A DNA stretch of 64,000 nucleotides from Clostridiaceae bacterium BRH_c20a (lineage in GTDB: Bacteria; Bacillota; Peptococcia; Peptococcales; BICA1-8). The number at the start of each line of letters is the position of its first letter. Position 1 is the first letter of the stretch. The notes under the pieces were generated by a model that saw nothing but the letters and a program-made list of their open reading frames with translations, was not told the DNA's origin and made no database searches. The DNA lies in the NCBI GenBank assembly GCA_000961765.1, contig LADT01000024.1, positions 1-64,000 on the forward strand, in the 5' to 3' direction. Below, piece by piece: positions 23,991 to 61,752 of the stretch. A program made the translations under genes and the position numbers.

Positions 23991-24028
23991 CCAAACCGGG
24001 CGGGCATGGAAACCCGCCCCTACCATTT

Positions 24029-25498: not shown

Positions 25499-25500
25499 TT

Positions 25501-28914: not shown

Positions 28915-28930
28915 ATAAACACTCCCTCCC

Positions 28931-30342: not shown

Positions 30343-30636
30343 GTATCCGCCTCCTTTTTGTTATTTTATTCACAATTCAGAGAACTAGTCTCTTTATTAA
30401 TAATATCAGAATAATTCGGAATATTTAATAAAACTTTTTTATACTATTCTAAATATTGCATAAATACGAAATTGTTAAAATATTCACATATATCAGCCTA
30501 TTATTGCGAAAGAAAGCACAAATTCATATTAGCTATAAAATAAATTTATTTTGGTTTATATTTAAAAATTTGCTTAGGCTTAGTCCGTTTTTTTAATTGA
30601 GAATTCGTTTTTAAATAATTAATAGATTGAAATAAA

Positions 30637-30656
30637 CGAGCCGGCTAGGGCTCGCT
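30637..30656 (-). terminator. Intrinsic terminator after the small protein gene
   Basis: CGAGCCCTAGCCGGCTCG followed on the minus strand by TTTATTT. A similar stem (GCGAGCC/GGGCTCGC) follows the paralogous small gene near 48772-48792. Confidence 0.8.
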
Positions 30657-30660
30657 TATA

Positions 30661-30816
30661 CTACTTCTTATTATTAAATCCCTGGGGATTAAATTGCTTT
30701 ACAATATCCTGAACCGCTTTTTTTATTTCTTCACCCGGGTTGTCTCCTTTTAAGGATTTATTTAAATTTTCGGTAAAATTATCCATTATTGACTTTATCT
30801 TCTTATCCTTTCCCAT
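30661..30816 (-). CDS. Small protein of a new paralogous pair (copy 1, 51 aa)
   Basis: The frame runs from ATG 30816 to TAG 30661. The protein starts MGKDKKIKSIMDNFTENLNK and continues SLKGDNPGEEIKKAVQDIVK, then QFNPQGFNNKK. A second gene at 48816-48974 has the same length and pattern (FTEN, KSL.G.NP..EI..AV.D, then NP). The conservation and ribosome-site-like GGAAGGG upstream show that both are real genes. The frame overlaps the end of the amidohydrolase gene by 14 bases and is closed by its own terminator, so it is the last gene of the TPR-ligase-amidohydrolase unit. It appears helical and soluble; I know no family for it. Confidence 0.8.
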   Translation of the reverse strand: MGKDKKIKSIMDNFTENLNKSLKGDNPGEEIKKAVQDIVKQFNPQGFNNKK

Positions 30817-31672
30817 TCCACCAAACCCTTCCTTTTTGTTTGATATTTTCCTGATTGGACTTTTCTTTAACTGGTCCCTCTTTGGCTACCCTTTCTCTAC
30901 TTACCATCTCTTTAGAACTTAAATTTAGGAGCAAACTGATATTTCCACCTAGTATCCGTTCCTTATCCCCATCTGATAGATCAAGCAGAAGAATTTTCTT
31001 TATTTCTGCTGCCGGGTGAGATAATGGAAATTCCGAACCAAAGACTATTTTTCTAGGCCCCGCTTTTTTAACAGCTTCTTTTATGTGAAGAAAGTTTCCG
31101 GTTGAAGTTTCCAGAAAAAAATTGTTCAGCTCTCTAGCAGCTTCTAAACCATCCTGGTCAGCAGGCCCGAAGCCCATGTGACCTAAAATATAATTAGTTT
31201 TCGGGAATTGCTTTGCTAAAGCTGCAAACTTGACAGTAGAAGCACCTGGACTATACACTACATGGGTGTATACTGGATAACCATAATTCCCGCACAATTC
31301 TGTCAACTCTGCTATCGCTTTACTGGAAAAGGAAAATTGATGGGTCATAGGTGATAATTTTAATCCTTTATACCCCGTTCTAAGAGCCTGCTCTAATTTA
31401 TTTGCAGCATTAGCCTCATGGGGATCAATACAGAAATACCCTCTAAGCACATCTGGGTTGGCTTTAATAGATTTTTGAACATACTCATTATTTGGAACTA
31501 GGTTCTCCGGATTTTTCCGACCGATAATATACTCAGTCATTATTCTAACATCCATCATACCGCCAGGAACTACTACACCCTGGTCAATACCTGCTTCCTT
31601 TATTTGCTTTAAATAAAGCTCAGCATTACCATAATCTGTCTCAGAAATATGTGCATGGGCATCTATTATCAT
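30803..31672 (-). CDS. Metal-dependent amidohydrolase (amidohydrolase 2 type)
   Basis: 289 residues of a TIM-barrel hydrolase. The HxH metal motif is at the N-terminus (IIDAHAHIS); further expected ligands are in YPVYTHVV and ILGHMGFGP. The last barrel strand reads FGSEFPLSHP where most relatives have Asp, so Glu replaces the usual catalytic acid. The C-terminal 40 residues are polar and basic, unlike the family, and overlap the small protein gene. It begins 11 bases after the ligase gene upstream. A decarboxylase, lactonase or cyclising amide hydrolase role are all possible; the ligase-amidohydrolase pairing recalls benzoxazole-forming pathways. Confidence 0.85.
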   Translation of the reverse strand: MIIDAHAHISETDYGNAELYLKQIKEAGIDQGVVVPGGMMDVRIMTEYIIGRKNPENLVPNNEYVQKSIKANPDVLRGYFCIDPHEANAANKLEQALRTGYKGLKLSPMTHQFSFSSKAIAELTELCGNYGYPVYTHVVYSPGASTVKFAALAKQFPKTNYILGHMGFGPADQDGLEAARELNNFFLETSTGNFLHIKEAVKKAGPRKIVFGSEFPLSHPAAEIKKILLLDLSDGDKERILGGNISLLLNLSSKEMVSRERVAKEGPVKEKSNQENIKQKGRVWWNGKG

Positions 31673-33014: not shown

Positions 33015-35123
33015 TCACTCCTCAATATCAATATCCACTAATTCTCTATAAGAGGGATCGCTAGCTACTTCTAAAAGCTGTTTCCAAGCTTTTTGGGACC
33101 GTTTATAATCACCTGTACGCTTATAGAGAGCACCTAAATCATAAATAACACGCCAATAAAGCTCCTCTGAAATTTTACTTTTTCCCTGTTCAAAGGCATT
33201 TTTCACAAATTTCAAGTCTTTGGCTGCTTTATCTGCAAGAGGGAAAAAAGCTTCAGGCAAGGAAGCAAAAAGATATCCTCGCAGTAAGCGCAACTGAGGA
33301 TTTGTATTATCTTTACTGATGGCTTTTTTTAACATTTTCAAGCCTTGGATTGCATTACCAAACATAGTGTTGGGATCATTGGCATCACGACCCAGAAGAG
33401 CTATGGAACTGGCGTAATAACCTAAAGCTATAGGGTCATCAGGGTCCATTTCATGTACCTTTTCCAGAATGGCATGGGCTTTTTGGACTGCTGCTTTATG
33501 ACCTGCCACTCCTATATCATGCAGGCGTATGCCTTCTGTTAATAAATCTTCTTTACTATGCATGGAAGCTATTTTAGTATCTATATCTCCTAAATCAGCA
33601 CCCAACTGTTCCTGAATTAAATTGTGATATTTATCATACGGTGTTTGGGCCAATAGTTTATCCCAAGTCTCCTCAGCCTGATCATCCATATCTAAACGTT
33701 TGTAACAAACTCCTAAATCATATAAAATCTGCCAGTAAGTATCCCGGTCTAACAACTGCTCATTTTCTTCATAACCTTGGATGATAAATTCAAAATCAGT
33801 AATAGCTGTGGCGGTACGTCTAAAGAAGCTTTCCGGAAGTCTAAAACTTTGATATGCCCTAATTAGCCGAATTGTCATATTTTTGGGGTTATCATTAGCT
33901 ACCTTGTCTAATAACTTTGCCGCTTTTATTGCATTAACAAATAAATTGCTAGAAATTTTACTATCCCTTCCGGTCATTGATAGGCAGTCAGCATAATAAG
34001 CTGTAATAAGGTCATTATCCGGGTTGGCTTTATTGGCTTTGTTAAAGTAATCAAAGGCTTTACCGGTTGCCTCTTTATCTCCAGTTTTAGCGGCCATATA
34101 GAGCTTGATACCTTCACTAAATGATTCCTTAGTTTCCAGATTGGAAAATTTTTGCTCATCTTCATAAAAACCATCTCCATCTTTCTGAGCAGCAATAGGT
34201 TCATCTGATTTTATAATTTCTCCATTACTTAAAGGCTCCTCTTCCAGCGGTTTTACTATCAAATCTACCTCTTTAGTAACAGGTAATTCTTGGATAATAT
34301 CTGCTTTTTCACCTTTTTTATCTTTTTTGGATTTCGTTATGCCTTCTTTTTTTAATAACTTAATATATTTTTCATCAGAAGTAACTTCTAAAAGCTTTTG
34401 CCACGTTTTTTTAGCCTCATCATGCCTATTTAAATTTTTATAAGCTCCTCCTAAGTCATAAAGAAGCTTTAAGTAATAACTTTCTGTAAAAATGTTCTGA
34501 TCTTTTTCATATCGGGAAATCATGTGTTTAAAGTCCTCTACAGCCGTGTCGGTACGGTGAAAATACATTTCCGGAAGCCGGTAGCAAACATTAGCTCGAA
34601 GAATCCGAACTTGAGTATTTTCAGGATTTATTTTAACAACTTGATCCAAGATTTTTAATCCTTCCAGAGCTTTATTCATGCGCTCATTTGGATTAATTGA
34701 ATCCCTGCCTAAGAGGGAAATAATACTGCCTAAATACCCTTTGGCTTCTACATTTTCAGGTTCTTGTTCCAAAAATTCCTTCAATAATTTATGAGCTTCG
34801 ACTACCGCTTTTTTGTCCCCTGCTACCCCTAAATCATGCAATTTTATTGCCTCTTCTAAAATTTTTTCAGTGCCATTAACCTCTTTGGTATGTAGTTCCT
34901 CTTTGACTTGAGCCTCTGTTTCTTTGCCATCTTCAACAAAGAAATTTTCTAGTTTTACTGCCTCTCCCCAAGATTCTTGGTTATTTTCCGCCTCTTCACC
35001 GAGAGACCTTTCATTCATATCGATAATTTCATTTTGCTTTTCCCTTTTGGTTTCTGGCAAATTATTTTTTTCTTTTTTAACAAAACCTATGGCCCATGGA
35101 ACTTTACGATTTTTATCCGCCAT
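33015..35123 (-). CDS. TPR-type protein with three long internal repeats
   Basis: 702 residues. After a charged, low-complexity N-terminus (1-85) there are three copies of a module of about 165 residues (about 90-255, 335-500 and 530-695). Each has the order LHD(L/I)GVAG-like start, LGRD/TGRD near residue 60, an R(L/I)LRA/G helix, a PE.FF/YF.R block and a final YDLG.(A/C)YK....A..W..LL. Linkers between modules are acidic and Lys-rich. The helices fit tetratricopeptide repeats fused into a larger unit. It probably forms a scaffold; no signal peptide. First gene of a unit with ligase 1, the amidohydrolase and the small protein. It starts at ATG 35123 after AAAGGAGG. Confidence 0.85.
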   Translation of the reverse strand: MADKNRKVPWAIGFVKKEKNNLPETKREKQNEIIDMNERSLGEEAENNQESWGEAVKLENFFVEDGKETEAQVKEELHTKEVNGTEKILEEAIKLHDLGVAGDKKAVVEAHKLLKEFLEQEPENVEAKGYLGSIISLLGRDSINPNERMNKALEGLKILDQVVKINPENTQVRILRANVCYRLPEMYFHRTDTAVEDFKHMISRYEKDQNIFTESYYLKLLYDLGGAYKNLNRHDEAKKTWQKLLEVTSDEKYIKLLKKEGITKSKKDKKGEKADIIQELPVTKEVDLIVKPLEEEPLSNGEIIKSDEPIAAQKDGDGFYEDEQKFSNLETKESFSEGIKLYMAAKTGDKEATGKAFDYFNKANKANPDNDLITAYYADCLSMTGRDSKISSNLFVNAIKAAKLLDKVANDNPKNMTIRLIRAYQSFRLPESFFRRTATAITDFEFIIQGYEENEQLLDRDTYWQILYDLGVCYKRLDMDDQAEETWDKLLAQTPYDKYHNLIQEQLGADLGDIDTKIASMHSKEDLLTEGIRLHDIGVAGHKAAVQKAHAILEKVHEMDPDDPIALGYYASSIALLGRDANDPNTMFGNAIQGLKMLKKAISKDNTNPQLRLLRGYLFASLPEAFFPLADKAAKDLKFVKNAFEQGKSKISEELYWRVIYDLGALYKRTGDYKRSQKAWKQLLEVASDPSYRELVDIDIEE

Positions 35124-36515: not shown

Positions 36516-36527
36516 GAGGAATTTTCA

Positions 36528-37397: not shown

Positions 37398-38377
37398 TTT
37401 CAATTCTTAATAAACTCATACCAGCTGAAACTAACCTTCCTTGGCTAGCTAAAGTAACAATGCTGCTAATTTTAGTTTTGCTCCCATTTATCTTAAGTTC
37501 CTACGGACTTAGCTTATTAACAAAGGTATTAATCTTCGGACTCTTTGCTATGAGTCTTGATATCTTAGTTGGATTTACAGGATTGGTTTCTTTTAATCAT
37601 GCTTCTTTTTTCGGAGTAGCAGCCTATACAGTTGGCATTTTAGTCAACCGTGGATTTGAAAACTTTTGGCTTTTACTCATTCCGGGGATTGCCATAGCAT
37701 TACTTTTGGCAGGATTGCTAGGTTTACTGATTTTAAGAAGCAGTGGGGCCTATTTTCTAATGATAACTCTGGCCTTTGGACAAATGCTTTTTGCTCTAGC
37801 CTGGAAATGGCGTTCTTTGACCGGAGGAGATGATGATGGGTTACCTGGGATTGGCAGGCCGGAAATAGGCCTTCCTATTTCTATGTGGAATGAACAAAAT
37901 TTCTATTTTCTAGTTTTAATATTATTTATAGGCAGTTTTTTACTGATAAAAAAAGTTATTAAGTCCCCCTTTGGTAAATCCATTGTCGGTACACGGGAAA
38001 ATGAACTCCGTATGCAGTCTTTAGGCTATAATACATGGCTTATTAAGTACATATCTTATATTATTGCCGCAGGATTCGCAGCACTGGCGGGTATTTTATA
38101 TACCTATTTTAATGGTTTTATTTCCCCCCAAGAACTCGACTGGTCAATGTCCGGATATATCCTATTAATGGTTATTATTGGAGGTGCAGGAACCTTAGTA
38201 GGTCCTGTTGTCGGAGCCGCAGTGATAATTATTTTACAAAATCTAATTAGCACCTATACCGAACTATGGCCCTTATTTATGGGTTTAATCTTTATACTTT
38301 GTGTTTTGTTTGCAAGAGATGGCATAGTAGGCTCTCTACTAAAACTCTATCAAAAAAAGGTTGGGGAAATGAAATGA
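37394..38377 (+). CDS. livM: ABC transporter permease LivM type
   Basis: 327 residues, about nine membrane helices, with LVGFTGLVSFNHASFFGVAA and ILYTYFNGFISPQELDWSMS. It starts with TTG at 37394, overlapping the livH stop (TTGA). The end overlaps livG by four bases. Second channel half of the transporter. Confidence 0.94.
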   Translation: MISILNKLIPAETNLPWLAKVTMLLILVLLPFILSSYGLSLLTKVLIFGLFAMSLDILVGFTGLVSFNHASFFGVAAYTVGILVNRGFENFWLLLIPGIAIALLLAGLLGLLILRSSGAYFLMITLAFGQMLFALAWKWRSLTGGDDDGLPGIGRPEIGLPISMWNEQNFYFLVLILFIGSFLLIKKVIKSPFGKSIVGTRENELRMQSLGYNTWLIKYISYIIAAGFAALAGILYTYFNGFISPQELDWSMSGYILLMVIIGGAGTLVGPVVGAAVIIILQNLISTYTELWPLFMGLIFILCVLFARDGIVGSLLKLYQKKVGEMK

Positions 38378-39072
38378 AAGCTTTAGAAATAAAGAATATT
38401 AGTAAAAGCTATGGAGGCCTTGATGTTTTAATAAATGTATATTTTACTTTAGAGCAAGGGGAAAGGAGGGCCATTATAGGGCCTAATGGTGCGGGAAAAA
38501 CAAGTTTGTTCAACATTATCAGCGGTATCATAAAGCCTGATTCCGGAGAAATTTATCTTCTAGGCCAAAATGTTACCCGTTTATCAACATACCTTAGATC
38601 CAGATTAGGTTTAGCCCGTACCTTCCAAAGAAATACTCTTTTTAACAATTTGAGCATACTGGATAATGTTGAATTAGCCCTTCATAGTACTAAATCCGAC
38701 TCAAATATTAAAGATATATTAAGAAATTGGGGATTGTGGGACAAAAGAAAAGTTATAGTTAAAGAATTATCCTATGGTGAACAAAGACAAATAGAAATAC
38801 TATTAGCATTGGTTCAATCTCCGAAAATAATTATCCTGGATGAACCTACAGCCGGTATGTCACCAATGGAAACAAAAACAATTACTGAAATGATTAAATC
38901 CCTATCCCGGGATATTACTGTTTTAATTATCGAACATGACATGGATGTTGTTTTTAATCTTGCCGATGGAATCAGTGTTCTGCATAACGGACAAATATTA
39001 TGCGAAGGAAGCCCCGATGAAATAAAATCTAATCCGCTGGTAAAAGAAGTCTACCTCGGTACGGATCATTAG
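38374..39072 (+). CDS. livG: ABC transporter ATPase LivG type
   Basis: 232 residues with Walker A GPNGAGKTSLFN, signature LSYGEQRQIEI and Walker B IIILDEPTAGM, plus the LivG-type TFQRNTLF segment after the Q loop. The frame is open back to 38266, but those codons lie within livM; ATG 38374 overlaps the livM stop (ATGA) and begins the ATPase. Drives transport together with LivF. Confidence 0.95.
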   Translation: MKALEIKNISKSYGGLDVLINVYFTLEQGERRAIIGPNGAGKTSLFNIISGIIKPDSGEIYLLGQNVTRLSTYLRSRLGLARTFQRNTLFNNLSILDNVELALHSTKSDSNIKDILRNWGLWDKRKVIVKELSYGEQRQIEILLALVQSPKIIILDEPTAGMSPMETKTITEMIKSLSRDITVLIIEHDMDVVFNLADGISVLHNGQILCEGSPDEIKSNPLVKEVYLGTDH

Positions 39073-39086
39073 GAGGCAAGATCATC

Positions 39087-39782
39087 ATGTTACAGTTAAC
39101 TGATGTGCACACGTATTATGGAGATAGTCATATATTGCAAGGAGTAACCCTAGAAGTTCCCCAAGGTTCTGTGATAGCCTTACTGGGTCGAAATGGAATG
39201 GGCAAAACAACTACAATTCATTCTATAATTGGCTTTACTCCACCGGTAAAGGGTCAAATAGTTTTTGAAGGTAAAAATATTGTCGGTTTTCAACCATATC
39301 AGATAGCTCAATTAGGTATAGCCCTTGTTCCTCAAGGAAGGAGAATTTTTCCTTCATTAACCGTCAAGGAAAATCTAACTATCGGCTGGCAAAAAAAGAA
39401 AGGTCAATTAGATAATGACTTAAAACATATTTACAGTTTATTTCCTGTCTTAAAAAAAAGAGAAAAACATTCCGGTAAACACCTAAGCGGCGGAGAACAG
39501 CAAATGCTGGCTATCGGCAGAGCATTAATGACCCATCCGAAATTGATTTTAATGGATGAACCTTTAGAAGGGTTAGCTCCCACCATTATCCAAGACATTT
39601 ATAAAAAAATCATAGAACTTAAATCCAGCGGTTACTCAATACTGTTAGTAGAGCAAAATATCCATTTAGCCCTTAAAATCGCTGACTATGTCTATATCAT
39701 GAATAAAGGGAAAATCGCCTATCATGGAGATACAAAGCAAGAACAAATAAAAGAAGAAATCAAAAAGTATTTAAGTATCTAA
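39087..39782 (+). CDS. livF: ABC transporter ATPase LivF type
   Basis: 231 residues with Walker A GRNGMGKTTTIHS, signature LSGGEQQMLAIGRAL and Walker B LILMDEPLEGLAP, the standard LivF pattern. Fourteen bases after livG, start ATG 39087 after TAGGAGGCAAGATC. Closes the transporter core. Confidence 0.95.
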   Translation: MLQLTDVHTYYGDSHILQGVTLEVPQGSVIALLGRNGMGKTTTIHSIIGFTPPVKGQIVFEGKNIVGFQPYQIAQLGIALVPQGRRIFPSLTVKENLTIGWQKKKGQLDNDLKHIYSLFPVLKKREKHSGKHLSGGEQQMLAIGRALMTHPKLILMDEPLEGLAPTIIQDIYKKIIELKSSGYSILLVEQNIHLALKIADYVYIMNKGKIAYHGDTKQEQIKEEIKKYLSI

Positions 39783-42905: not shown

Positions 42906-43700
42906 TTACAATTCAGCTACTTCTTTTAGTTTTTCCCTTGGCATATCTTCATCTATCACCCGGCGGATAAGGCGGGCAAGGTGAGTGGGATTATGATGCT
43001 GAAATACATTCCTGCCTATGGAAACCCCTTTTGCACCAGCTTTAATTGCATCATCAATCATCACCAATAGATCATAGGTTGAATTTACTTTCTGCCCCCC
43101 TGCAATGATTACAGGAACTTTGACAGCTTGAGTAACCTCCTGGAAGGTTTCAACAGACCCAGTATAATTTACTTTTATTATATCAGCGCCAATTTCTTCT
43201 GCAACACGGGCGGCATGTTTTATTTTTACGGGATCATATTCATTTTCTTTTATGCCATCTCTGACATACATCATTGCTAAAAGAGGCATTCCCCATTGGT
43301 CACAATATTCAGCCACTTTACCCATGTCTTTTAGCATCGAACCTTCAGAATCCCCCCCCAGGTTAACGTGTACTGAAACCGCAGTTGCCCCAAGCTTAAT
43401 AGCATGCTCTACTGAGGAAACCAGTTCCTTACTATTTGGTACAGGACCTAAAGCAGTAGAAGCAGATAAATGTACGATAAGCTCACATTTTCCAGCGTTT
43501 AAATCTCCGGCAATCTGTTTAACCAGACCTTTATGAACTATTACTGCATCTGCTCCACCTTCTGCAACCATTTTGACCATTCCAGGCATATCAGTTAAAC
43601 CGGCAACCGGTCCAATGGTTATACCGTGATCCATAGGTACGGTAAATAACCGCTGAGAATGTTTAAATAATTTATTTAACCGCATTTCTTTTCCAGTCAC
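42906..43700 (-). CDS. Class I aldolase of the ADH-synthase/GriI type
   Basis: 264 residues of the DhnA-like aldolase family. TVPMDHGITIGPVAGL and GADIIKVNYTG, with the Schiff-base Lys, are visible, as are a phosphate loop (IIAGGQK) and SIGRNVFQH. In archaea this family (MJ0400) makes 2-amino-3,7-dideoxy-heptulosonate from aspartate semialdehyde; in Streptomyces griseus GriI makes the corresponding C7 amino sugar on the way to 3-amino-4-hydroxybenzoate. The dehydroquinate synthase II next to it acts on these products. Start at GTG 43700, eight bases after GGAGG; the frame runs five codons further. Which of the two routes applies cannot be told from sequence. Confidence 0.86.
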   Translation of the reverse strand: MTGKEMRLNKLFKHSQRLFTVPMDHGITIGPVAGLTDMPGMVKMVAEGGADAVIVHKGLVKQIAGDLNAGKCELIVHLSASTALGPVPNSKELVSSVEHAIKLGATAVSVHVNLGGDSEGSMLKDMGKVAEYCDQWGMPLLAMMYVRDGIKENEYDPVKIKHAARVAEEIGADIIKVNYTGSVETFQEVTQAVKVPVIIAGGQKVNSTYDLLVMIDDAIKAGAKGVSIGRNVFQHHNPTHLARLIRRVIDEDMPREKLKEVAEL

Positions 43701-43754
43701 TTTATTTACCTCCACTCAATTTTTTAGCTAATTGTATACTCATTAGCCACTTTT

Positions 43755-43885: not shown

Positions 43886-45010
43886 TTATTTTTCAATTAT
43901 TGTTTCTTTGATTTTAATGCCCACATGCCTGCCCGCATCACAAGTATACGCTAATAATTTTGTTCCTGGCTTAATTTCAGTTGCATTTAAAGGTTTACCT
44001 TCGGCACCCATAATTCTGATATGCCAGTCGTCTTGAACAATTACACTGATTTCTTTATTTCCTACTTCTCCACTGATTAAGAGCAGCGGCCTGACTTCTA
44101 TCTTAACTCTGCCCACACTTAGCTCCCTGGCTTCGCCCTGAGTATTAATGCAGAGGACTTTACTGCCTGCTTTGAGGTCAGTAAGGTATTCTGCTTTATC
44201 CTCGGGCATCCAAATATAAGAATGAACGGCTCCGGCATTTACCCTAAAAGGCCGCAAGTTCATATAAGGGAGGTAGTGGGTTTCGGAACAAACAAAAATA
44301 CCTCCCTCGGAAGTAGATCCCACCAGCATACCTTCATCCTGAGTCATTAAACCGGTAGTATCAATACAGGCCCTTGCTCCCATACCTATATGCTTTACCT
44401 CGGTGACAACAAGAGGTTGTAAATCAATATGCTCAATTCCTTGGACGGCGAGAAATTGATTGGTTTTTATAATTTCTGACAACTGATTTGTTGCTAACAG
44501 TACACCATCACTACCTTGCTCCATTACCCCTAATGCTACCTGTAAACCTTCAAAAGTAGTTTCCCGCTTTAAAAGGACTGTTTTATCTTTTTGCAGCTTG
44601 GCAATAATCAATTCCAAAGGGATATTAGTCGGCAGGTCAAAATCAACCACTGCATAGTCAAATTTTTCCGCTTCTTCCCAAACATTTTCCAGAGCTTCAC
44701 GGTCGGAAATAAAAAGGGAAAGACATGTTTTATAACCCTGCTCTTTTGCCAAGTCCAGGATTTGCTGATTAAAAGATATTACTATCTCCCCTTCAGCAAT
44801 ATCTTCTAAATCCTCCTCATCTTCTACAAATGTCATAAATTTTGTTTTCAGTGGAAAGTGCCCATCCCGGCGTTGGATCGGCGTTATCACAACTCTATTA
44901 ATGTTGGAGTTATTAATGAGGCTCCAAATATCCTGCCGTTCCAGGGATATTTCTCGCCCATCAAACCAAATATTATTTCGTTGATTTTCCTTTTTCTTAA
45001 AATTTTCCAT
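43886..45010 (-). CDS. 3-dehydroquinate synthase II family (GriH/AroB'-like)
   Basis: 374 residues of the family that in archaea converts the heptulosonate to 3-dehydroquinate by oxidative deamination and cyclisation. In actinomycetes (GriH) it forms 3-amino-4-hydroxybenzoate. The signature block is clear: VGSTSEGGIFVCSETHYLPY followed by MNLRPFRVNAGAVHSYIW. Start ATG 45010 after AAGGGATGAGAGT. The usual bacterial AroB (type I) is unrelated. Nearby aromatic-acid ligases make a secondary-metabolite or specialised-cofactor role at least as likely as primary aromatic amino-acid synthesis. Confidence 0.88.
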   Translation of the reverse strand: MENFKKKENQRNNIWFDGREISLERQDIWSLINNSNINRVVITPIQRRDGHFPLKTKFMTFVEDEEDLEDIAEGEIVISFNQQILDLAKEQGYKTCLSLFISDREALENVWEEAEKFDYAVVDFDLPTNIPLELIIAKLQKDKTVLLKRETTFEGLQVALGVMEQGSDGVLLATNQLSEIIKTNQFLAVQGIEHIDLQPLVVTEVKHIGMGARACIDTTGLMTQDEGMLVGSTSEGGIFVCSETHYLPYMNLRPFRVNAGAVHSYIWMPEDKAEYLTDLKAGSKVLCINTQGEARELSVGRVKIEVRPLLLISGEVGNKEISVIVQDDWHIRIMGAEGKPLNATEIKPGTKLLAYTCDAGRHVGIKIKETIIEK

Positions 45011-46963: not shown

Positions 46964-47290
46964 ATGTGTAGTACATGGAAGAGTTTACCTGATGGGAATA
47001 GTACGAACACACCAAAGCTAGTTTCTAAAGAAGGCATTAAGAAGATCCTCCAAGCATTGGAGAATGCGGCAGTCTTAGAGAAACTGAAGCAGAACAATGC
47101 TAGTTCAACTGATACACTTAGCCTCCCTGAGACTTCTAGACCAATAGACCTAACATGCGTTAGTGAGTTTATTCAAATTTTAGAACAAGTCGCAGCTCCA
47201 GATAGCACACAGGAACTAACCATAGATAACTTACTAAAAGGACTTAATGGAATAAAGGAATCACTGTTAAGCCAAGTCAAGTCTCAATAA
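46964..47290 (+). CDS. Hypothetical soluble protein, 108 aa
   Basis: The gene starts at ATG 46964 after a strong AGGAGGGAG. The protein is helical and polar with no membrane segment: MCSTWKSLPDGNSTNTPK, two amphipathic helices (KEGIKKILQALENAAVLEKL and TCVSEFIQILEQVAAPD), and a final LLKGLNGIKESLLSQV. I recognise no family. A CATATCTTA element at 46878-46886 resembles a sigma-E/K -10 box but lacks a matching -35, so sporulation control is only a guess. It lies alone on the plus strand between ligases 2 and 3. The 320-base gap before it shows nothing else. Confidence 0.65.
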   Translation: MCSTWKSLPDGNSTNTPKLVSKEGIKKILQALENAAVLEKLKQNNASSTDTLSLPETSRPIDLTCVSEFIQILEQVAAPDSTQELTIDNLLKGLNGIKESLLSQVKSQ

Positions 47291-47492: not shown

Positions 47493-48746
47493 TTAAATAT
47501 TAGCCGTTAGATAAGCCTTTTGCTCCATTTCTCGCGAAGTAAAGATATAACGAGGCTTACCTACCTCAGCAACTGTAAAAAGCCCATTTCTGTCATATAG
47601 GGTTCCTTTAGGTACAATTTCTATTTCTATTTTCAGATTACACTTTACTTCCAAAGCATTGATTAAATCTTGTGTTACACTATCTCCACTTTTTTCTTCT
47701 TCAACTATGAACTTTACGCCGTCAGCTTTTGGACCTGCTACCCAAAAACGCTGACAAGGAAGGTGTGATATTATATCACTTAAATCCCAGCAATCCAAAA
47801 CCCGGTTATCAATTTTCAAAACATCACTGCTGCGCCCATGGTGTTCGAAGGAATATTCTTCCCCGCAAGGGCATTTCTCCGGTACTATTTTAGCTCTATC
47901 GCCGGTCAAGTAACGAATAACAGGTGTGCCTTTTTTCTTTAATGTTGTAATAACAAGGCTGCCTATTGAACCAGGTTCCACTTCAGTCTGTAAATCATCA
48001 GCCAAAATCTCAAAAATAAATTCATCTTCCGGTATGTGGTGCCGTCCAAATTGACAATTGGTAATACCTGAACCTATTTCCGTCATTCCAAAATTATCGG
48101 TAATGGGTACTCTCCAAATACTTTCCAATAATTGACGCTTGCCTCTGGTAAGAGGTTCCCCTGCTGAAAAAATAGCCCTTAAATGGGGGAAGTCCTGAGC
48201 AGGGTTTAGTCCCATAAGCTCAGCAGTTTCAGCTAGGAGAAGGGCTTGCAGAGGCAAACCGGCAAAAATTGTAACTTTTAATTTTTGCATAAGATTGATG
48301 GTTCTGGTAAAAGGAGTGACAGTAGTTCTAGAACTTGCGGGGATAACACATGCGCCTTTTGCTTGAACAGCAGGATGTACGATATGTGCTATTAATGAAA
48401 GAGCGTAGGGAAATCTTATTAGTACTATATCGTTTTTGGTAAACTCAAGCCCACCGGAATTAATATTTTTCATGTGCAGATGAAGGTCTTCTTTAGTTAA
48501 CCATGAAGAAATAGGTGAACCCGTAGTCCCGAAGGATTCATGGTATTCATAGAGCTTTTTCTGGGGAACACATACTAGTCCATATGGTGAGTTATTTCTA
48601 AGATCTTCTTTAGTAATGAGAGGAATCTTCTTAAACTCTGCGAGAGAATCTATTGGTTTAGCAGGCATGCGCTCACGATAAAAAGATGCTTTTCGGCAGT
48701 GTTTAATAAGTTTATTAATAGACTGTAATCTATTTTCAAATGACAT
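47493..48746 (-). CDS. Phenylacetate-CoA ligase-like adenylating enzyme (3)
   Basis: 417 residues, paralogue of ligase 2 along its whole length (shared HCRKA.FYRER.P, YHESFGTTG.PIS, GACVIPASSRTT, PITDNFGMTEIG, CQFGRHHIP, CGEEYSFEHHGRSS). Most differences are conservative, but sites near the middle (for example AAQSKGA against AVQAKGA) vary, so substrates may differ slightly. The start at 48746 follows GAGGAGGAGAAC. The small protein gene lies immediately upstream, beyond its own terminator. Confidence 0.88.
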   Translation of the reverse strand: MSFENRLQSINKLIKHCRKASFYRERMPAKPIDSLAEFKKIPLITKEDLRNNSPYGLVCVPQKKLYEYHESFGTTGSPISSWLTKEDLHLHMKNINSGGLEFTKNDIVLIRFPYALSLIAHIVHPAVQAKGACVIPASSRTTVTPFTRTINLMQKLKVTIFAGLPLQALLLAETAELMGLNPAQDFPHLRAIFSAGEPLTRGKRQLLESIWRVPITDNFGMTEIGSGITNCQFGRHHIPEDEFIFEILADDLQTEVEPGSIGSLVITTLKKKGTPVIRYLTGDRAKIVPEKCPCGEEYSFEHHGRSSDVLKIDNRVLDCWDLSDIISHLPCQRFWVAGPKADGVKFIVEEEKSGDSVTQDLINALEVKCNLKIEIEIVPKGTLYDRNGLFTVAEVGKPRYIFTSREMEQKAYLTANI

Positions 48747-48771: not shown

Positions 48772-48792
48772 AGCGAGCCCCATAGGGCTCGC
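48772..48792 (-). terminator. Intrinsic terminator between small protein 2 and ligase 3
   Basis: GCGAGCC/GGCTCGC with a short loop, followed on the minus strand by TTGTTTTAA. It may be partial, so ligase 3 could still be read from upstream. Confidence 0.75.
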
Positions 48793-48815
48793 TGGAAACA
48801 GTATACTATAGGGGG

Positions 48816-48974
48816 CTATTCTTTGTTATTAATATTCACTGCATCAGGATTTATCTTTTTGAGCATATCCCATACCGCGTTTTGAATTTCTTGGCTGGGG
48901 TTCTCTCCTTGTAATGATTTAGTAATATTTTCAGTAAAATCTTTTACTATGGATTGCAGTTCATTATTGCCCAT
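48816..48974 (-). CDS. Small protein of a new paralogous pair (copy 2, 52 aa)
   Basis: The frame runs from ATG 48974 to TAG 48816. The protein starts MGNNELQSIVKDFTENITKS and continues LQGENPSQEIQNAVWDMLKK, then INPDAVNINNKE. It aligns with copy 1 (30661-30816) over its whole length without gaps until the last few residues. AAAGGAGG stands 10 bases before the start. Both copies lie next to an adenylating ligase and a GAGCC-stem terminator. Predicted helical, soluble, no Cys. Unknown family. Confidence 0.82.
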   Translation of the reverse strand: MGNNELQSIVKDFTENITKSLQGENPSQEIQNAVWDMLKKINPDAVNINNKE

Positions 48975-51440: not shown

Positions 51441-52475
51441 ATGGATCACAGTATCTATAAAGATTATGTAAAAGACGCCTCTACAGTTATAAAAGAATAT
51501 CCCATCCAGGTCATGTATATAAAACGATACCTGTACCAATCCAATAAAGCTGTCTGGCATATTAAATCAAATAATAAAAATTATGCCTTAAAAAGGTATT
51601 TATTAAATAAAGACCAGTGGAATGTGATGATATCTGCCTACAACTACCTAAGTAAAGAAGTAAACAATGTCGCTCCATTGATACATACAAAGAATGCTGA
51701 ACCTTGGGTTATGGATAATGATTGTTATTATATTTTAACTAATTGGGTTAAGGGTAGGCCACCAGATTATTCTAATTCCGAAGATATAACTAAATTAACC
51801 CGGGGTATAGCGGAGCTCCATCAGGCAGCCAAGGATTATAAAGTACCGGCGATTCTAAAAATTGATAAGCATTTGGGTAAATGGCCTCTCCTGACACGGC
51901 GCAAACAGGGTTTGCTTTTAGAATATAAATATGAAGCGGAAACAAATAGTTCTGATATTTTTTGCAAGCTGTATCTAAAACACTATCAGAATTTTTTTGA
52001 GCTTTTTGAAGAGGTTTCAGAAGTTTTCGAAAGTAAAATTTATGGGGATTGGGTTGATAAAATAAAGAGGTCCCCTTGTCTATGTGTTAATGGATTTTTA
52101 CCCCAAAATTTCTCTTTAGGTGAGGAAAATGCCTTTTGGCTGTTACATCTGGATAACATTTGCTTAGATTTGCCGGCTCGGGACTTAAGAAAATTAATTT
52201 TTAAAACTATGTATTTCCAGAAGAACTGGTGTGCTAATACTGTTTCACTGATTTTACGAAACTATTTAGATATCTACCCATTATCAAAGGAGGAACTTAG
52301 AGTACTTCTAGCGGAATTAAAAGCCCCTCACATTTTCTTTAATGTTACTACCAATTATTTTTTAAAGCAAAAGCCTAACTGGAGTAAAGAGATATTTAGA
52401 TCAAAAATGATAAATGCAATTAGATTTGAACAGAATAAAATAGACATATTGAGCAGGTTTTGGCAGCTGGTTTAG
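51441..52475 (+). CDS. CotS-family spore coat protein (kinase-like fold)
   Basis: 344 residues of the CotS/YutH branch of the aminoglycoside-phosphotransferase fold. Signs: the N-terminal lobe with YALKRYL (the ATP-lysine region), hinge YILTNWVKGRPPDY, and GIAELHQAAK. The usual catalytic HGDxxxxN is degenerate (VNGFLPQNFSL), while a later Asp is kept in LLHLDNICLD. It is likely a spore coat component rather than an active kinase, though some family members keep activity. The ribosome site AAGGGGGGAATC and a sporulation-type promoter precede it. Confidence 0.88.
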   Translation: MDHSIYKDYVKDASTVIKEYPIQVMYIKRYLYQSNKAVWHIKSNNKNYALKRYLLNKDQWNVMISAYNYLSKEVNNVAPLIHTKNAEPWVMDNDCYYILTNWVKGRPPDYSNSEDITKLTRGIAELHQAAKDYKVPAILKIDKHLGKWPLLTRRKQGLLLEYKYEAETNSSDIFCKLYLKHYQNFFELFEEVSEVFESKIYGDWVDKIKRSPCLCVNGFLPQNFSLGEENAFWLLHLDNICLDLPARDLRKLIFKTMYFQKNWCANTVSLILRNYLDIYPLSKEELRVLLAELKAPHIFFNVTTNYFLKQKPNWSKEIFRSKMINAIRFEQNKIDILSRFWQLV

Positions 52476-54076: not shown

Positions 54077-55126
54077 TTATATTAAGCTCCAATCTACCGG
54101 CGTACCCTTGGGGATTGATTTTACAACTTTTTTTCCTATTAATATATCGTAATACTTGGGCTCCAATCCAACCCCGGGTCTAATTCTGCCTAAATTATCT
54201 TTGGTAAATTCCTCTCCACCTTCCATATCCTTGATTACATACAAAGACCTGCGCCTCTTAAGAGAATTTTTTTCCCCCAAGGTAGGTCCATAATTCACCT
54301 TGCCTAGAGCCTGCCAGGCCCGGTTAGTTTCAATAACTAATTGTCTCATCTCATCAGGTTCTAAGGAAAAAGGAGCATCTACTCCCTCTTCACTCCGGGA
54401 TAAAGTAAAATGCTTTTCTATTACTGTAGCTCCTAAGGCCACACTAGCCACGGCAACCCCTATTCCCAATGTATGGTCAGACAAGCCCACCTGACAGTTA
54501 AACAACTGCTCCATATGGGGAATAGTTAAAAGATTACAATATTCTGGGGGAGCTGGATAATTGCTGGTGCATTTAAGCAAAATCAGATCCTTACACCCTG
54601 CCTGCCCCGCTGCTTCAACTGCATCGGCAATTTCCCTGATAGATGCCATGCCGGTAGAAATAATTAGCGGCTTCCCGGTTGCAGCAGCTTTTTTAATTAA
54701 AGGTATATCCACTATTTCAAATGAAGCAATTTTGTAGCAGGGAGGATTTAATTCTTCTAAGAAATCAACAGCGGTTTCATCAAAGGGCGAACTAAAAATA
54801 TTTAACTCTAATTTACGTGCTAAACTAAATATTTTTTCATGCCATTCCCATGGAGTATAGGCTTTTTTATAAATCTGATATAAAGATTTTCCTTGCCAGA
54901 GATTTCCTTGTTCATTAATCATGAACTCATTTTCATCTATATCTAAGGTCATGGTCTCCGGGGTATAGGTTTGCATTTTTAAGGCATCCGCCCCTGCTTC
55001 CTTGGCAGCACAAACCATTTCTAGGGCCTTATCCAGAGACTGATTATGATTTCCCGACATTTCAGCAATAATAAAGGGAGGATGACCCTGACCGATTTTT
55101 CTATTCCCCACTATTATTTCTCCCAT
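54077..55126 (-). CDS. pseI: Pseudaminic acid synthase
   Basis: 349 residues of the NeuB/PseI family; condenses the 6-deoxy-AltdiNAc sugar with phosphoenolpyruvate. The NeuB barrel spans 1-270 (PFIIAEMSGNHNQSLDKALE, FSSPFDETAVDFLEEL, ISTGMAS, KCTSNYP, GLSDHTLGIG, IEKHFTL) and a SAF antifreeze-like domain spans about 290-345. The AYTPWEWHEKIFSLA and KIASFEIVDIPLIKK segments are those of PseI rather than NeuB. Start ATG 55126 after GGAGGAATAAACA. The PLP aminotransferase, dehydratase and cytidylyltransferase lie upstream, but the connecting PseG gene is broken. Confidence 0.9.
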   Translation of the reverse strand: MGEIIVGNRKIGQGHPPFIIAEMSGNHNQSLDKALEMVCAAKEAGADALKMQTYTPETMTLDIDENEFMINEQGNLWQGKSLYQIYKKAYTPWEWHEKIFSLARKLELNIFSSPFDETAVDFLEELNPPCYKIASFEIVDIPLIKKAAATGKPLIISTGMASIREIADAVEAAGQAGCKDLILLKCTSNYPAPPEYCNLLTIPHMEQLFNCQVGLSDHTLGIGVAVASVALGATVIEKHFTLSRSEEGVDAPFSLEPDEMRQLVIETNRAWQALGKVNYGPTLGEKNSLKRRRSLYVIKDMEGGEEFTKDNLGRIRPGVGLEPKYYDILIGKKVVKSIPKGTPVDWSLI

Positions 55127-55176
55127 TGTTTATTCCTCCGAGCATTTCTATTTTTCAAGCTTTAATTATTTTTCTC

Positions 55177-56315
55177 TTAGGTTGGAGGGGTAATGGTAAA
55201 GTAGATCTGCTTTTCTGCCCTATCACTTTTTTCTATTACTTCTTCCCTGCTCTGACCCACTGCTACCAGATAAAAAAATCTATCTGCGCCTGTTTTTAAT
55301 GGTTTAATAATTTTCTGGCGAGAATCCTGAAAGAAATCAGCCTTGACAATACCTGGCATTTTTAAGACCTCTTCAATTCCGTAATGTTCAATGACAACTC
55401 CTGAGGTTAGAGGCCCAGGGTCTGCAGATAAAAACTTCACTGTAACGGCCGGAAAGCTGGGGTATTTTATATATTTTTCCAACTCAATCTTTTCTCCTAA
55501 AGCAAAGTCAATTTGGAGATCCAATAAATCGTAGCCGGTAGCGTACTCAAATAATTCCTTCATTATTCCTCCAGGGACCCGGACCCCTATTTCAATAACC
55601 ATGGGTCCCTTTTCAGTAATTATGATTTGGGGGAATAACAAGCCATTTTTAAGTTCTATGGCATTAATTATATCTTCAACCAGCTTTTCCACGGCTTTAA
55701 TTGTCTCCTCAGAGTAATTACCTGGATATAAATGCCGTTGAACAACACCAAAGGATTTATATTGATCTTTAATTCGTTCCGAGATAGTTAAAGCTTTGGT
55801 TCTTCCCTCTATGACCAGCCCTACTACATTAATTTCTTCCCCTTCTAAAAACTCCTCAATGATTATTTCTTGATCTAAATCAGTGGATTTCAGTTGGTCA
55901 AGGGCTTCTTTTAGCTCTTCTTGGTTCTAATCTTAAATAATCCCCTTTGTCCACCTTGCTTGATAGGTTTAATAACCTGAGGAAAACCTATTGCTTCGGC
56001 TGTTAAAAGGACATTATTCAGCTTTATATTTATCTGAGCATATTTTGGATTTGGAATCCCGTTTTCCTTAAAAATTTCCCTCATCTTATATTTATTTGTA
56101 GTTGCTTCAATACTTTTTTGACTAATACAGGGTAAGCCTAATTGTCTGCTTACTGCTCCAATAGTCGGCAAGGGTACTTCACTAATAAGGGAAGTAATCG
56201 CTTTGATTTTTTTCTCCCCGGCAAGCTTTAAAATTGACTTTTCATCTTTGACACATAGGTTATGACTCTCATCGGCAAAGGAAAAACCGTAAGCATCTGG
56301 ATTTCTATCCACTGC
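55177..56315 (-). pseudogene. Frameshifted ATP-grasp ligase gene
   Basis: Two overlapping reading frames together give one ATP-grasp protein. The upstream part reads AVDRNPDAYGFSFADESHN, ATTNKYKMREIFKENGIPNP and FPQVIKPIKQGG up to about 55930. A one-base shift there moves the frame to ELKEALDQLKSTDLD, EIIIEEFLEGEEINVVGLV and onward to 55177, with the ATP-grasp metal block VIEIGVRVPGGIM. The start of the gene is also lost: its first intact residues are joined in frame to the tail of the pseG remnant. Homologues often sit in pseudaminic/legionaminic sugar clusters as ligases of unknown role. Confidence 0.85.
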
Positions 56316-57249
56316 AATTTCTTGCCGTTTCAATTTATCCCCAGATAGTGCTCGCAGAGCCATGGCTATTTGATCTGCCGTGACCTCAGCTGCTGTTCCC
56401 AAAAATACAGTAGCCCCGTATTCACTAGCATATTTTTGCACTGAGTATTGATTGGGCCAGTTTTAATAGAGATATTTGGTAAGCCCATGAAGGCCATTTC
56501 AGCTAAAGTAACTCCCCCGCCGCATATCCTATATCTGCCCACCCCATTAAAGCCGCCATATTTTTTGTATTTATTAAATAAACTATATTAATGCATTTAA
56601 CTTCTTTTAGTTTAGATGCCTGACCCAAAATTATCTTGGTCTTAAAAGTTTCACCTAACTCTGTAATAGCGCCAACTACTTTAGTCAATAGTCTACTATT
56701 ATCAGCTCCGCCCAAAGAGACTAAAATATTAGTACCTCTGGGAGATATCTCTCTTTGCCAATCTCTCCAAGCCATAAACTCAGCCCGTAATGAAACAAAC
56801 TGGTGACCCAATAAAAGCTTTGTATAAGGCTCCCGGGTCCTATACATCCTTTCCTGGCCGTGTAACCCTCGATTTAAAACAATATCGGCATAGTAATGGT
56901 CAAAATGACCGTAATCATCTGAAATTAATAGGTTTAGCTTTTTATTTTTGATATCCTCCACCAAAGCTATAACCATCAGCAATTACCCCGTCTATTTTTA
57001 ACTTTTGAGCAAGGTTTACTGTCAATCTGCATCTAATTGGCTGCCGCTCTCACCTGTAGAATTGTAAAGGGTCATCCTTTCGATTTTCAATATAGCCCTT
57101 ACTCGTCAGGCATTTCCTCAGCTAAAAAGAAAACCTCCCCTCCCTACTTTTTCCAGGCTTGAGCTAAGGTAAGAGATCGCATAAAATGGGCCATACCCTA
57201 TTTTAGCGTCAGCATCTACTCTAATAAGCAAATTTTTTCCAGAAAGCAT
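56316..57249 (-). pseudogene. Broken pseG (UDP-sugar hydrolase) gene
   Basis: The remnant starts well (ATG 57249, LLIRVDADAKIGYG) but then breaks. A frameshift lies near 57185 (HFMRSLTLAQAWKK in the next frame), stops at about 57144 and 57099, another shift near 57022 (LTVNLAQKLKIDGVIADG), and one near 56508. GVTLAEMAFMGLPNISIKTG follows in yet another frame. Its middle part (56503-56982) is an open frame with SLGGADNSRLLTKVVGAI, typical of PseG. The tail (QKYASEYGATVFLGTAAEV) runs in frame into the ATP-grasp remnant. PseG releases UDP from the sugar before PseI acts, so the pathway is interrupted unless another copy exists. Confidence 0.85.
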
Positions 57250-57251
57250 AT

Positions 57252-57986
57252 TCACCTTATTTCCACCTGCTTAACATGGGCATTGATTTTACTAAACTGA
57301 GGATTGATAACAAGAAAATTTATTATATCTTCCAATGTAAACCAAGGTTTCCCGCCATAAAGACCTTCAATTATCCTTTTTATTAAAAAAAAGTCCTCTT
57401 CAGTATCTACAGTTAAGCGATAGTAACTTACCTCCTGATGATAACAAACATTTTTAAGCTTAAATTGCTTAGGGTTCAGATAAATAAAAGAGGTTACATG
57501 TTCTCTGTCCAGGGGATTTTTGGCCTCAAAAAAGGATTTTTCTAAAGCACTAAAAGAAATCACACTGGTATCCATTCCTCTAGGAAAGGTTCTAACTAAT
57601 GTATTTGATACGTAATCTACCTGGGGATAAGATTTTAAAAATTCTCTAATAACAGTATCAATTACTTGGGAATCAATCAGAGGGCAATCTCCAGTTAGGC
57701 GAACTATTATGTCTGCTTTAGCATTACGGGCAGCATAATAGTAACGGCTTAAAACATCGGTTTCCGAACCACAGTAGTATGGCACTGACAATTTATGGCA
57801 TAAATCAATAATTTTTTTATCTTCACTATTGTTTGTTGTAGCTACCATAAGGCTATTAAGATATTTGGACCTAGCAACCCTTTCAATTTGCAATTGTAGT
57901 AATGGTTTTTCTAAAACTTCTTTTAATACTTTTCCAGGCAGTCTTTGGGAACCCATCCTTGCCTGGATAATGGCTGCAATCTCCAT
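57252..57986 (-). CDS. pseF: Cytidylyltransferase of the PseF/SpsF type
   Basis: 244 residues; activates the nonulosonic acid with CTP. N-terminal IAAIIQARMGSQRLPGKVL is the nucleotide-binding signature; later RLTGDCPLIDSQVI and YRLTVDTEEDFFLI bind metal. Start ATG 57986, seven bases after AGAGGTGGG. The frame is complete, in contrast to the gene directly downstream, and its stop codon overlaps the region just before the pseG remnant start. Confidence 0.9.
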   Translation of the reverse strand: MEIAAIIQARMGSQRLPGKVLKEVLEKPLLQLQIERVARSKYLNSLMVATTNNSEDKKIIDLCHKLSVPYYCGSETDVLSRYYYAARNAKADIIVRLTGDCPLIDSQVIDTVIREFLKSYPQVDYVSNTLVRTFPRGMDTSVISFSALEKSFFEAKNPLDREHVTSFIYLNPKQFKLKNVCYHQEVSYYRLTVDTEEDFFLIKRIIEGLYGGKPWFTLEDIINFLVINPQFSKINAHVKQVEIR

Positions 57987-58004
57987 TAAACCCACCTCTT
58001 TAAT

Positions 58005-59204
58005 TTACACTCTAAAACTATTAATAACTTTTTCAACTCCTTGAATCACATCCTCTACATCGGCCTCTGTCATGGCTGGGAATAGAGGTAGGGTAATACA
58101 TTCCCGGTAGAAGTCCTCTGCCTCTTTACATAAACCCTTTTTATAACCTAGCCCTTGGTAATAGGGATGAAGATAGACAGGAATGTAATGAACATTTACA
58201 CCTATGTTCTCTTTTTGTAAGGCTTGGAAAATCTTATTGCGGTCAACTGATAATCGATCTAGTCTTATGCGTAAGATATATAAATGCCAGCTGGAGTTAC
58301 AATCCTCTCTTTGGTAAGGGGTGACGACCTCCTGGATATTTTCAAATCCATCATTATACATTTGGGCATAGTGCTTTCTAAGTACAACAAATTTATTTAG
58401 TTTCTCCAGTTGACTTATACCTAAGGCAGCCTGAATATCTGTCATTCGATAATTATAGCCAAGATCTTGCATCTCATAATACCAGCTTTCCGTTCCGTTT
58501 CTTAGCTTTTCTTTGTCCCGAGTTATGCCGTGGCTTCTAAACAATAATAATTTTTCATATATACTTTTGTCATTGGTAGTAATAATCCCACCCTCACCTG
58601 TAGTGATATGCTTGACGGGATGAAAACTGAACATGGTCATTGTGCTTAATCCACCTATTTTTTTGCCTTTAAACTCTGCACCTAAAGCATGGGCCCCATC
58701 TTCAATAACCACTAAATTATATTCCGCAGCAATTTTAGCTATAGCACCAATATCAATAGGCTGACCGGTAAAGTGTACCGGAATAATAGCTTTCGTTTTG
58801 TTGTTTATCAAATTTTTTATATTTTCAGCCTCAATATTATAGGTATCAGGGTTAATATCGGCAAAAACAACAGTTCCTCCTTGATAAAGTACGCAGTTGG
58901 CACTGGCAGCAAAGGTAATTGGCGTAGTAATTACTTCATCACCTTTAGTTATGCCGGCGGCATAACATGCCCCATGTAAAGCCGCAGTCCCATTGGCAAA
59001 ACTGACAGCATATTGGGCATTTGCATACTCTGCGATTTTTTTTTCAAAGAGGTTGACTGTGGGACCTGTGGTTAAGTAGTCCCCATTTAAAATTTTAATA
59101 ACGGACTGGATATCTTTCTCATCTATCCACTGCCGGCTATAAGCTAAGTATTGTTCCCGAATGGGTTTACCGCCATTTATTGCTAATTCGCTATCCCTAG
59201 CCAT
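58005..59204 (-). CDS. pseC: PLP aminotransferase PseC
   Basis: 399 residues of the DegT/DnrJ/EryC1 sugar aminotransferase family. PLP-binding lysine in FSFHPVKHITTGEGG, the LEKK-like substrate region GDYLTTGPTVNLFEKKI, EDGAHALGAEFKGKKIG, and YNYRMTDIQAALG. The enzyme aminates the 4-keto sugar produced by PseB. Start ATG 59204 after AAGGGA. Eleven bases follow the epimerase gene. Confidence 0.92.
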   Translation of the reverse strand: MARDSELAINGGKPIREQYLAYSRQWIDEKDIQSVIKILNGDYLTTGPTVNLFEKKIAEYANAQYAVSFANGTAALHGACYAAGITKGDEVITTPITFAASANCVLYQGGTVVFADINPDTYNIEAENIKNLINNKTKAIIPVHFTGQPIDIGAIAKIAAEYNLVVIEDGAHALGAEFKGKKIGGLSTMTMFSFHPVKHITTGEGGIITTNDKSIYEKLLLFRSHGITRDKEKLRNGTESWYYEMQDLGYNYRMTDIQAALGISQLEKLNKFVVLRKHYAQMYNDGFENIQEVVTPYQREDCNSSWHLYILRIRLDRLSVDRNKIFQALQKENIGVNVHYIPVYLHPYYQGLGYKKGLCKEAEDFYRECITLPLFPAMTEADVEDVIQGVEKVINSFRV

Positions 59205-59217
59205 CAAAATCCCTTCT

Positions 59218-60162
59218 TTATAACAGATTTGTTGATTTAATCCATTCCTCTGTCTTTTTAATTCCCTCTTCCAGGTCAGTTTGGGGTTGCCAATTTAATA
59301 AATTTTTAGCTTTTTGAAAATTACATAACAGTTTTTTTATTTCACTTTGGGGATGAATATGTGGTACATGTTTTATTTTTTGCTCATTGCCACCAATCAG
59401 CATTGCTAAATCATTAATGGAAATATCTCGACCCAAGCCTGCATTAATTATTTCTCCCTCTACAGATTGAGAATAGCCTGCTGTAACTACAAAACGGGCA
59501 CAGTCTTCTACATAAAGAAGATCACGGGTTTGGGTCCCATCACCATAGATAATCAAATCCTTGCCTGCTAATTTGTTTTTAATAAAAATTGCAACAACTC
59601 CGCCCTCCCCCCCTGTCTTTTGGAAAGGACCATAGGTATTAAAAGGACGAACAATTACAATTGGCATATCATAAGCATAATAGTAGGAAAAAACCATATC
59701 CTCTGCAGCAATTTTGGAGCCTGCATAAGGCGACGCCGGTTTAGTAGGGTGGGTTTCTTTAATCCCTTCGCTATTAAAGGCACGGTCATAAACCATGCAA
59801 GTACTCATAAATACTAACTTTACCTTATTTTTTCGACACTCCTCCAGCACTTTAAAAGTACCTATGGTATCATTTTCAAAGGTTTTTGCCGGATCATCTA
59901 TACTATCTTGAACATTTATGCCGGCTGCGAGATGATAGCAAATATCAAACTTATTTCTAAATATGTCTGCCAACAGTTGACTATTGTTTATATCTCCGTG
60001 GACAAAATCCATAAAATTTGGCTCATTAAAAAAATTAGCAATATTTTTGGTCCTGCCGTTGGTAAGATTATCTACTACCCAAACTAAATGACCGTCCTTT
60101 AGCAGTTCATTAACAACCCACCTGCCGATAAAGCCACTGCCGCCTGTTACCAGTGCCCGCAA
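59218..60162 (-). CDS. NAD-dependent sugar epimerase/dehydratase
   Basis: 314 residues of the extended SDR family. N-terminal LVTGGSGFIGRW, then DLTNGRTKNIANF-like sugar binding region, catalytic Tyr-Lys in SPYAGSKIAAEDM, and RPFNTYGPFQ. Start at TTG 60162, seven bases after GGAGGG; the frame continues 14 codons upstream without a better site. Located between pseB and pseC, it may make a second sugar nucleotide or modify the pseudaminic pathway; members include UDP-glucose 4-epimerases and GDP-mannose dehydratases. Confidence 0.88.
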   Translation of the reverse strand: MRALVTGGSGFIGRWVVNELLKDGHLVWVVDNLTNGRTKNIANFFNEPNFMDFVHGDINNSQLLADIFRNKFDICYHLAAGINVQDSIDDPAKTFENDTIGTFKVLEECRKNKVKLVFMSTCMVYDRAFNSEGIKETHPTKPASPYAGSKIAAEDMVFSYYYAYDMPIVIVRPFNTYGPFQKTGGEGGVVAIFIKNKLAGKDLIIYGDGTQTRDLLYVEDCARFVVTAGYSQSVEGEIINAGLGRDISINDLAMLIGGNEQKIKHVPHIHPQSEIKKLLCNFQKAKNLLNWQPQTDLEEGIKKTEEWIKSTNLL

Positions 60163-60227
60163 AACAAATCCCTCCTCACAGTTATCACGCGTTACACGCA
60201 CCACGATAATGAAAACGTTAGTTGTGT

Positions 60228-60352
60228 GTCATCCTAAGCGATAGCGAAAGATCTTATGCAGCGAAGAATGTCAAGATCCTTCGGTCGTTCCTCCTCAGGA
60301 TGACACGGGTTGAAAAATCGTCCATCGACTATCGTCCATTGACTATCAACGT
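60228..60352. repeat. Dispersed palindromic repeat plus degenerate 7-bp units
   Basis: CATCCTAAGCGATAGCGAAAG and the facing AAGATCCTTCGGTCG...CAGGATGACAC (60228-60306) form one copy of the dispersed palindrome. TCGTCCATCGACTATCGTCC-type 7-bp units follow (60318-60352). Confidence 0.8.
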
Positions 60353-60355
60353 ATT

Positions 60356-61689: not shown

Positions 61690-61752
61690 TATTAGCTGTA
61701 CATTTTAATGTACTCTGTAGCTAACTATTATAAAAAGAAGGAGGAAAGCAAT

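Follow-up and report, generated by a model that had tools for sequence, protein, structure and literature searches.

What are the two short reading frames that lie near PaaK-like ligase genes in this 64,000-nt stretch of DNA (the window), and what might their products do there? A sequence-only reading described them as a new pair of paralogous proteins, each linked to an adenylating ligase, and considered a carrier, a scaffold or a peptide substrate for the ligases as possible roles. The two frames and the stem-loops that follow them are:

30661..30816, minus strand: small protein copy 1 (51 aa), predicted helical hairpin; its first 14 nt are shared with the 3' end of the amidohydrolase gene
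30632..30659 (about), minus strand: stem-loop 3' of copy 1; 11 bp stem, shuffle z -3.9
48816..48974, minus strand: small protein copy 2 (52 aa), predicted helical hairpin; identified by open frame, pairwise comparison and predicted fold
48772..48793, minus strand: terminator-like stem-loop (9 bp stem with a TGTTTT tail) that separates copy 2 from ligase B2

The coordinates of both frames proved correct, and both frames are minus-strand genes, stops interrupting the plus strand. The two proteins are identical at 21 of 43 aligned positions (49%) and similar at 34 of 43 (two-sequence E = 5e-16), and their alignment, which had been described as gap-free except at the end, also contains a one-residue gap close to the N-terminus. 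Ribosome sites were confirmed for both copies, the Shine-Dalgarno sequence of copy 2 (AAAGGAGG-N10-ATG) being better than that of copy 1, where AAGGAAGG stands at a longer spacing from the start, as were GAGCC stem-loops 3' of both genes (48793-48772 and about 30659-30632). Differences between the copies at codon positions 1, 2 and 3 number 17, 3 and 23, and their dN/dS is ~0.22 (dN 0.32; dS 1.45, which is near saturation); close orthologue pairs in the family gave values of ~0.27, 0.32, 0.33 and 0.50. These ratios are not near 1 and, with the codon-position differences, indicate purifying selection on the small genes. A search of the 4.5 Mb genome revealed no copies beyond the two, and homologues are present in 21 other genomes, with a Shine-Dalgarno sequence just 5' of nearly all family members. 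A tree of 46 columns grouped both window copies, with support that became unreliable after re-rooting. The two small proteins are real and paralogous, and they belong to an undescribed, unannotated family.

The genes that accompany the two copies are:

30803..31672, minus strand: condensing amidohydrolase (ClxD/PfxB-like, Amidohydro_2); 52% identical to the P. fallax homologue, PF04909
31684..33018, minus strand: PaaK-like ligase A (ClxC/PfxA-like); 57.6% identical to the P. fallax homologue
33015..35123, minus strand: TPR protein, encoded by the gene that opens the copy-1 operon; found in the Bacillota clusters
42906..43715, minus strand: ADH-synthase-type aldolase for 3,4-AHBA; TIGR01949 322.9 bits, cut-off 299.45
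43886..45010, minus strand: DHQS-II family, 3,4-AHBA synthase-like (ClxB/PfxD-like); Pfam DHQS 343.5 bits, BagC/FevH 240 bits
45387..46643, minus strand: PaaK-like ligase B1, paralogue of B2 and 73% identical to it
47493..48746, minus strand: PaaK-like ligase B2 (ClxA/PfxC-like); best PDB match 9s3l, E 1.9e-73; 47.5% identical to the P. fallax ligase

On the minus strand, the copy-1 operon reads TPR, ligase A, amidohydrolase and small copy 1, and the copy-2 operon reads small copy 2, terminator-like stem, ligase B2, ligase B1, DHQS-II and ADH synthase. Each of the five pfx genes of Pyxidicoccus fallax (two for 3,4-AHBA synthesis, two ligases and a condensing amidohydrolase) therefore has a homologue in the window, which also encodes a TPR protein; the set is divided between two operons with one small gene each. 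Identity to the P. fallax enzymes is 58, 52, 48, 45 and 31% for ligase A, amidohydrolase, ligase B, DHQS-II and ADH synthase, respectively; the DHQS-II protein scored above the Pfam DHQS cut-off and below those of the NCBIfam equivalogs. The HxH motif, H137, H165 and E214 of the amidohydrolase are invariant in five sequences. We infer that structure 9s3l is ClxA, because its Y218, Y219, T222, N226 and K393 fit the ClxA numbering of PMC12519233, which describes a lysine contributed by the C-terminal extension of ClxA-type ligases. When ligase B is aligned with 9s3l, T222 and K393 are kept (as T222 and K397) and N226 is replaced by Ser; in ClxA, Asn226 contacts the para-hydroxyl of the substrate. 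With all five enzyme types present, the locus appears from its sequence to be a closoxazole-type benzoxazole cluster, the product being a prediction. By transfer from P. fallax and C. cavendishii, two genes would make 3-amino-4-hydroxybenzoate, ligase B would adenylate it and couple two units, the amidohydrolase would close the benzoxazole ring and ligase A would add a third unit.

Several other features of the window were recorded. The duplicated ligase B genes differ by dN 0.17 and dS 1.2. Between them, on the opposite strand, lies a 108-aa ORF with a good ribosome site (46964-47290, plus strand), which matched nothing in Pfam or NCBIfam and has no homologue among the fetched cluster loci. 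Branched-chain-amino-acid-type ABC transporter genes (35313-39782, plus strand) adjoin the cluster, as they do at four other loci (L006, L031, L141 and L142). Elsewhere are a group II intron-type reverse transcriptase (87-1418, minus strand); hydrogenase maturation genes followed by genes that resemble those of hydrogenases and heterodisulfide-reductase-type enzymes (16781-30342, minus strand); and a locus of surface-glycan (nonulosonate-type) appearance (54077-61363), with a DUF4183 protein (PF13799) nearby (61708-62133, plus strand). An ATP-grasp-type-looking gene (55177-56441, minus strand) spans two frames (55177-55692 and 55911-56441), possibly owing to a frameshift.

Do the small genes follow the ligase, as had been proposed, or the cluster as a whole? 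Iterated profile searches across the loci and genomes fetched yielded a small-protein family of 26 copies in 22 genomes (membership of one, L026, was assigned by eye from position and pattern). All but one of the 26 copies have a recognisable closoxazole/benzoxazole (clx/pfx) gene no more than 0.9 kb away, a count in which many loci had been fetched via the amidohydrolase, so that the genome searches are the fair tests of linkage. A profile search of 398 genomes of the phylum, several of which had been sources of the profile (the blind additions being G152, G379, G407, G252 and G680), gave 13 matches, with 11 among the 22 amidohydrolase-positive genomes (Fisher p 6e-14), and each of these 11 was inside the cluster. 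A match in G344 is probably due to chance because it sits within an 847-aa frame, and one in G286 (locus L134) is a real-looking short gene with no cluster. Among 299 genomes of the order of Metabacillus, four of them amidohydrolase-positive, the only confident matches were in G064 and G680, both in clusters; G680, which was unseen when the profile was built, has a full cluster with two tandem small copies at its end. Some genomes may be listed under two numbers, as G253 and G487 have the same coordinates. In cluster-bearing genomes, the confident profile matches were the cluster copies only. These results provide good support for the conclusion that the family belongs to clx/pfx-type clusters of Bacillota, and the suggested alternative, that homologues scatter with spore genes, was not borne out in general, a single one of the 26 copies being without a cluster. 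That stray family member is at 9926-10129 of L134.

Conversely, a detectable small copy is absent from about half of the Bacillota clusters, including four that have both TPR and ligase B genes (L014, L021, L025 and L145). Two small copies per cluster recur, in the window and in L013, L016 and L182. Small-positive loci carry TPR genes wherever enough sequence was available, and a close ligase B was found in 8 of 8 determinable small-positive genomes versus 3 of 11 small-negative ones (p 0.003), although this co-occurrence of the small gene with ligase B and TPR may be confounded by ancestry.

The position of the small gene within the cluster varies. It was seen after the amidohydrolase, ligase B, ligase A or ADH synthase gene, and before the TPR or ligase B gene; in Bacilli, it comes after the ADH-synthase gene, and in a genome of the same family as that of the window (G003) ligase A, amidohydrolase, small gene and ligase B stand in a row. 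Because position shifts while linkage persists, function is favoured over inherited gene order. Copy 1, which overlaps the amidohydrolase gene, is 0.87 kb from its ligase, and the small genes of Metabacillus litoralis, which follow ADH synthase, are separated from the ligase pair by ~134 kb. What had been read as a link to PaaK-like ligases is thus really a pathway link: the functional tie stands, but the small gene tracks the whole cluster, and its partner need not be a neighbouring ligase. In the Metabacillus loci L016 and L018, the TPR, amidohydrolase, DHQS-II, ADH synthase and small genes are together and both ligases are >130 kb off. The clusters that do without a small gene might suggest a passive passenger, i.e., a short gene carried along by the cluster without serving the pathway, but the persistence of linkage through changes of position, purifying selection, ribosome sites and recurrent paired copies make this improbable.

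The predicted structure bears on the remaining roles. AlphaFold predicted a two-helix hairpin (helices 3-21 and 26-41, pLDDT 85.2), in which at least 95% of members have hydrophobic residues at positions 6, 10, 13, 17, 30, 33, 34, 38 and 41. Conservation is confined to this hydrophobic face; charge is not kept (pI 4.5-10.6), and the C-terminus is variable. The family alignment contains no conserved Ser (at position 20, 14 of 21 members have A), Cys, His or acid for catalysis or a prosthetic group. Searches of the small proteins against Pfam, NCBIfam, PHROGs and PDB sequences gave no convincing family; a PDB match at 1.8e-9 to a 'circular tendon repeat protein' was rejected, as no single stretch was above threshold. 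In a Foldseek comparison with the PDB, the small protein had no match below E 3, as expected for a two-helix hairpin. Heliobacterial members have proline/threonine-rich extensions; long members with Pro/Thr-rich extensions are those at L131 (10106-10579) and L132 (11044-11427), and that of L131 ends in a zinc-ribbon-like CPNC motif.

Small size and residence in a cluster with two adenylating ligases would suit a carrier or peptide substrate that is acylated by those ligases. However, we found no phosphopantetheine serine or other nucleophile column to be conserved, and no Pfam carrier match. The hydrophobic helix face is conserved rather than the C-terminus, and in Metabacillus the small genes are ~134 kb from the ligases. 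In addition, PMC12118335 reports that the P. fallax pathway works in vitro with three purified enzymes, acting on free acids. A carrier role is therefore disfavoured and a peptide-substrate role unlikely, and in our view the acylation reading as a whole is very improbable. As about half of the clusters have no detectable copy and the P. fallax enzymes are active in vitro with no such protein present, the small protein is not required for the chemistry.

Our preferred reading, which we consider possible, is that of a scaffold or adaptor. We tentatively propose, at somewhat less than even odds, that the small protein is a non-catalytic hairpin adaptor or assembly factor, accessory to the Bacillota closoxazole-type cluster, the adaptor role and the partner being inferred. 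It would form an amphipathic two-helix hairpin, the conserved hydrophobic face of which may pair with itself, its paralogue, the TPR protein or ligase B. The hairpin would thereby hold pathway enzymes together or tune them, with no catalysis of its own, perhaps via the TPR proteins.

Alternatively, the small protein might serve in self-protection or regulation, by binding the benzoxazole product or controlling expression of the cluster. Its gene is restricted to the cluster and usually stands at the 3' end of a unit, and the terminator-like stem that splits copy 2 from ligase B2 makes it possible that copy 2 is expressed above ligase B2. Against such a role, no DNA-binding family in Pfam or NCBIfam was matched, charge is not conserved and the small gene is absent from the myxobacterial producers, so that we regard it as quite unlikely.

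A spore-related role also has to be weighed against the adaptor reading: small and TPR proteins made in the mother cell could place the benzoxazole, or its enzymes, in the spore coat. The sigma-K-like consensus (AC-N15/17-CATA-N3-T[AG]) occurs in its exact form 5' of the small gene in L012 and of the stray member in L134, and 5' of the L017 TPR gene, i.e., in 3 of 51 upstream regions versus 0.0056 per random 180-mer. Five of seven Bacilli loci also have a sigma-K-resembling motif 5' of their first TPR gene, but this relaxed motif was picked post hoc, and two of the loci (L016 and L018) are near-duplicates. A gene for a CotS-family spore coat protein (51441-52475, plus strand; TIGR02906 213.7 bits, cut-off 172.7) lies in the window at 2.4 kb from copy 2, but CotS is not close to the cluster at any other locus compared. 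The spoIVA gene is present in 21 of 22 cluster-positive genomes and does not discriminate, because 84% of the background also has it. Moreover, the myxobacterial clusters are without TPR and small genes. A sporulation link of the small genes is a lead only: that they are spore-layer components seems unlikely, and still less likely is the fuller proposal that endospore formers assemble the hairpin and TPR proteins into a mother-cell scaffold, by which a UV-absorbing, antibiotic-like benzoxazole is built or deposited in the spore layers. If true, this would be a natural-product pathway turned spore component.

How does the system compare with known ones? MbtH-like proteins are standalone accessory proteins of adenylating enzymes, and the small hairpin is comparable to them, by analogy only, as a non-catalytic protein of small size whose gene accompanies that of an adenylating enzyme. 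However, its predicted fold has two helices and no strands, and neither copy gave an MbtH-like match in Pfam or NCBIfam. Weak similarity was also seen to the C-terminal helical segment of DUF1002 (PF06207), with seven order-level matches at E 1e-4 to 9e-4; six of them look like the same 300-aa protein type, of which the tested member is DUF1002 (18.5-21.2 bits). Since DUF1002 proteins are ~300 aa as against 51-52 aa and the score is marginal, we do not claim homology.

The known clusters, according to PMC12118335, are clx of Clostridium cavendishii and pfx of Pyxidicoccus fallax DSM 14698; in P. fallax, the pfx enzymes make closoxazole A from 3,4-AHBA. Our amidohydrolase scan of genome contigs returned the P. 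fallax DSM 14698 locus itself (L030), and its gene order (ligase A, amidohydrolase, ligase B, DHQS-II, ADH synthase) is that of the pfx cluster as given in PMC12118335. This order recurs in many Bacillota loci. TPR and small genes were found neither in L030 nor mentioned in the available text of PMC12118335. Antibiotic-like clusters of this class, itself newly described, are accompanied by an overlooked, unannotated gene family that offers a cheap marker for finding related ones, and closoxazole-type clusters occur across spore-forming Bacillota with extra TPR and hairpin parts. Compared with pfx, the window has two operons, a duplicated ligase B and added TPR and small genes, and its sequence points to a new Bacillota variant of the closoxazole cluster, with TPR and hairpin parts that are missing from the characterised myxobacterial system.
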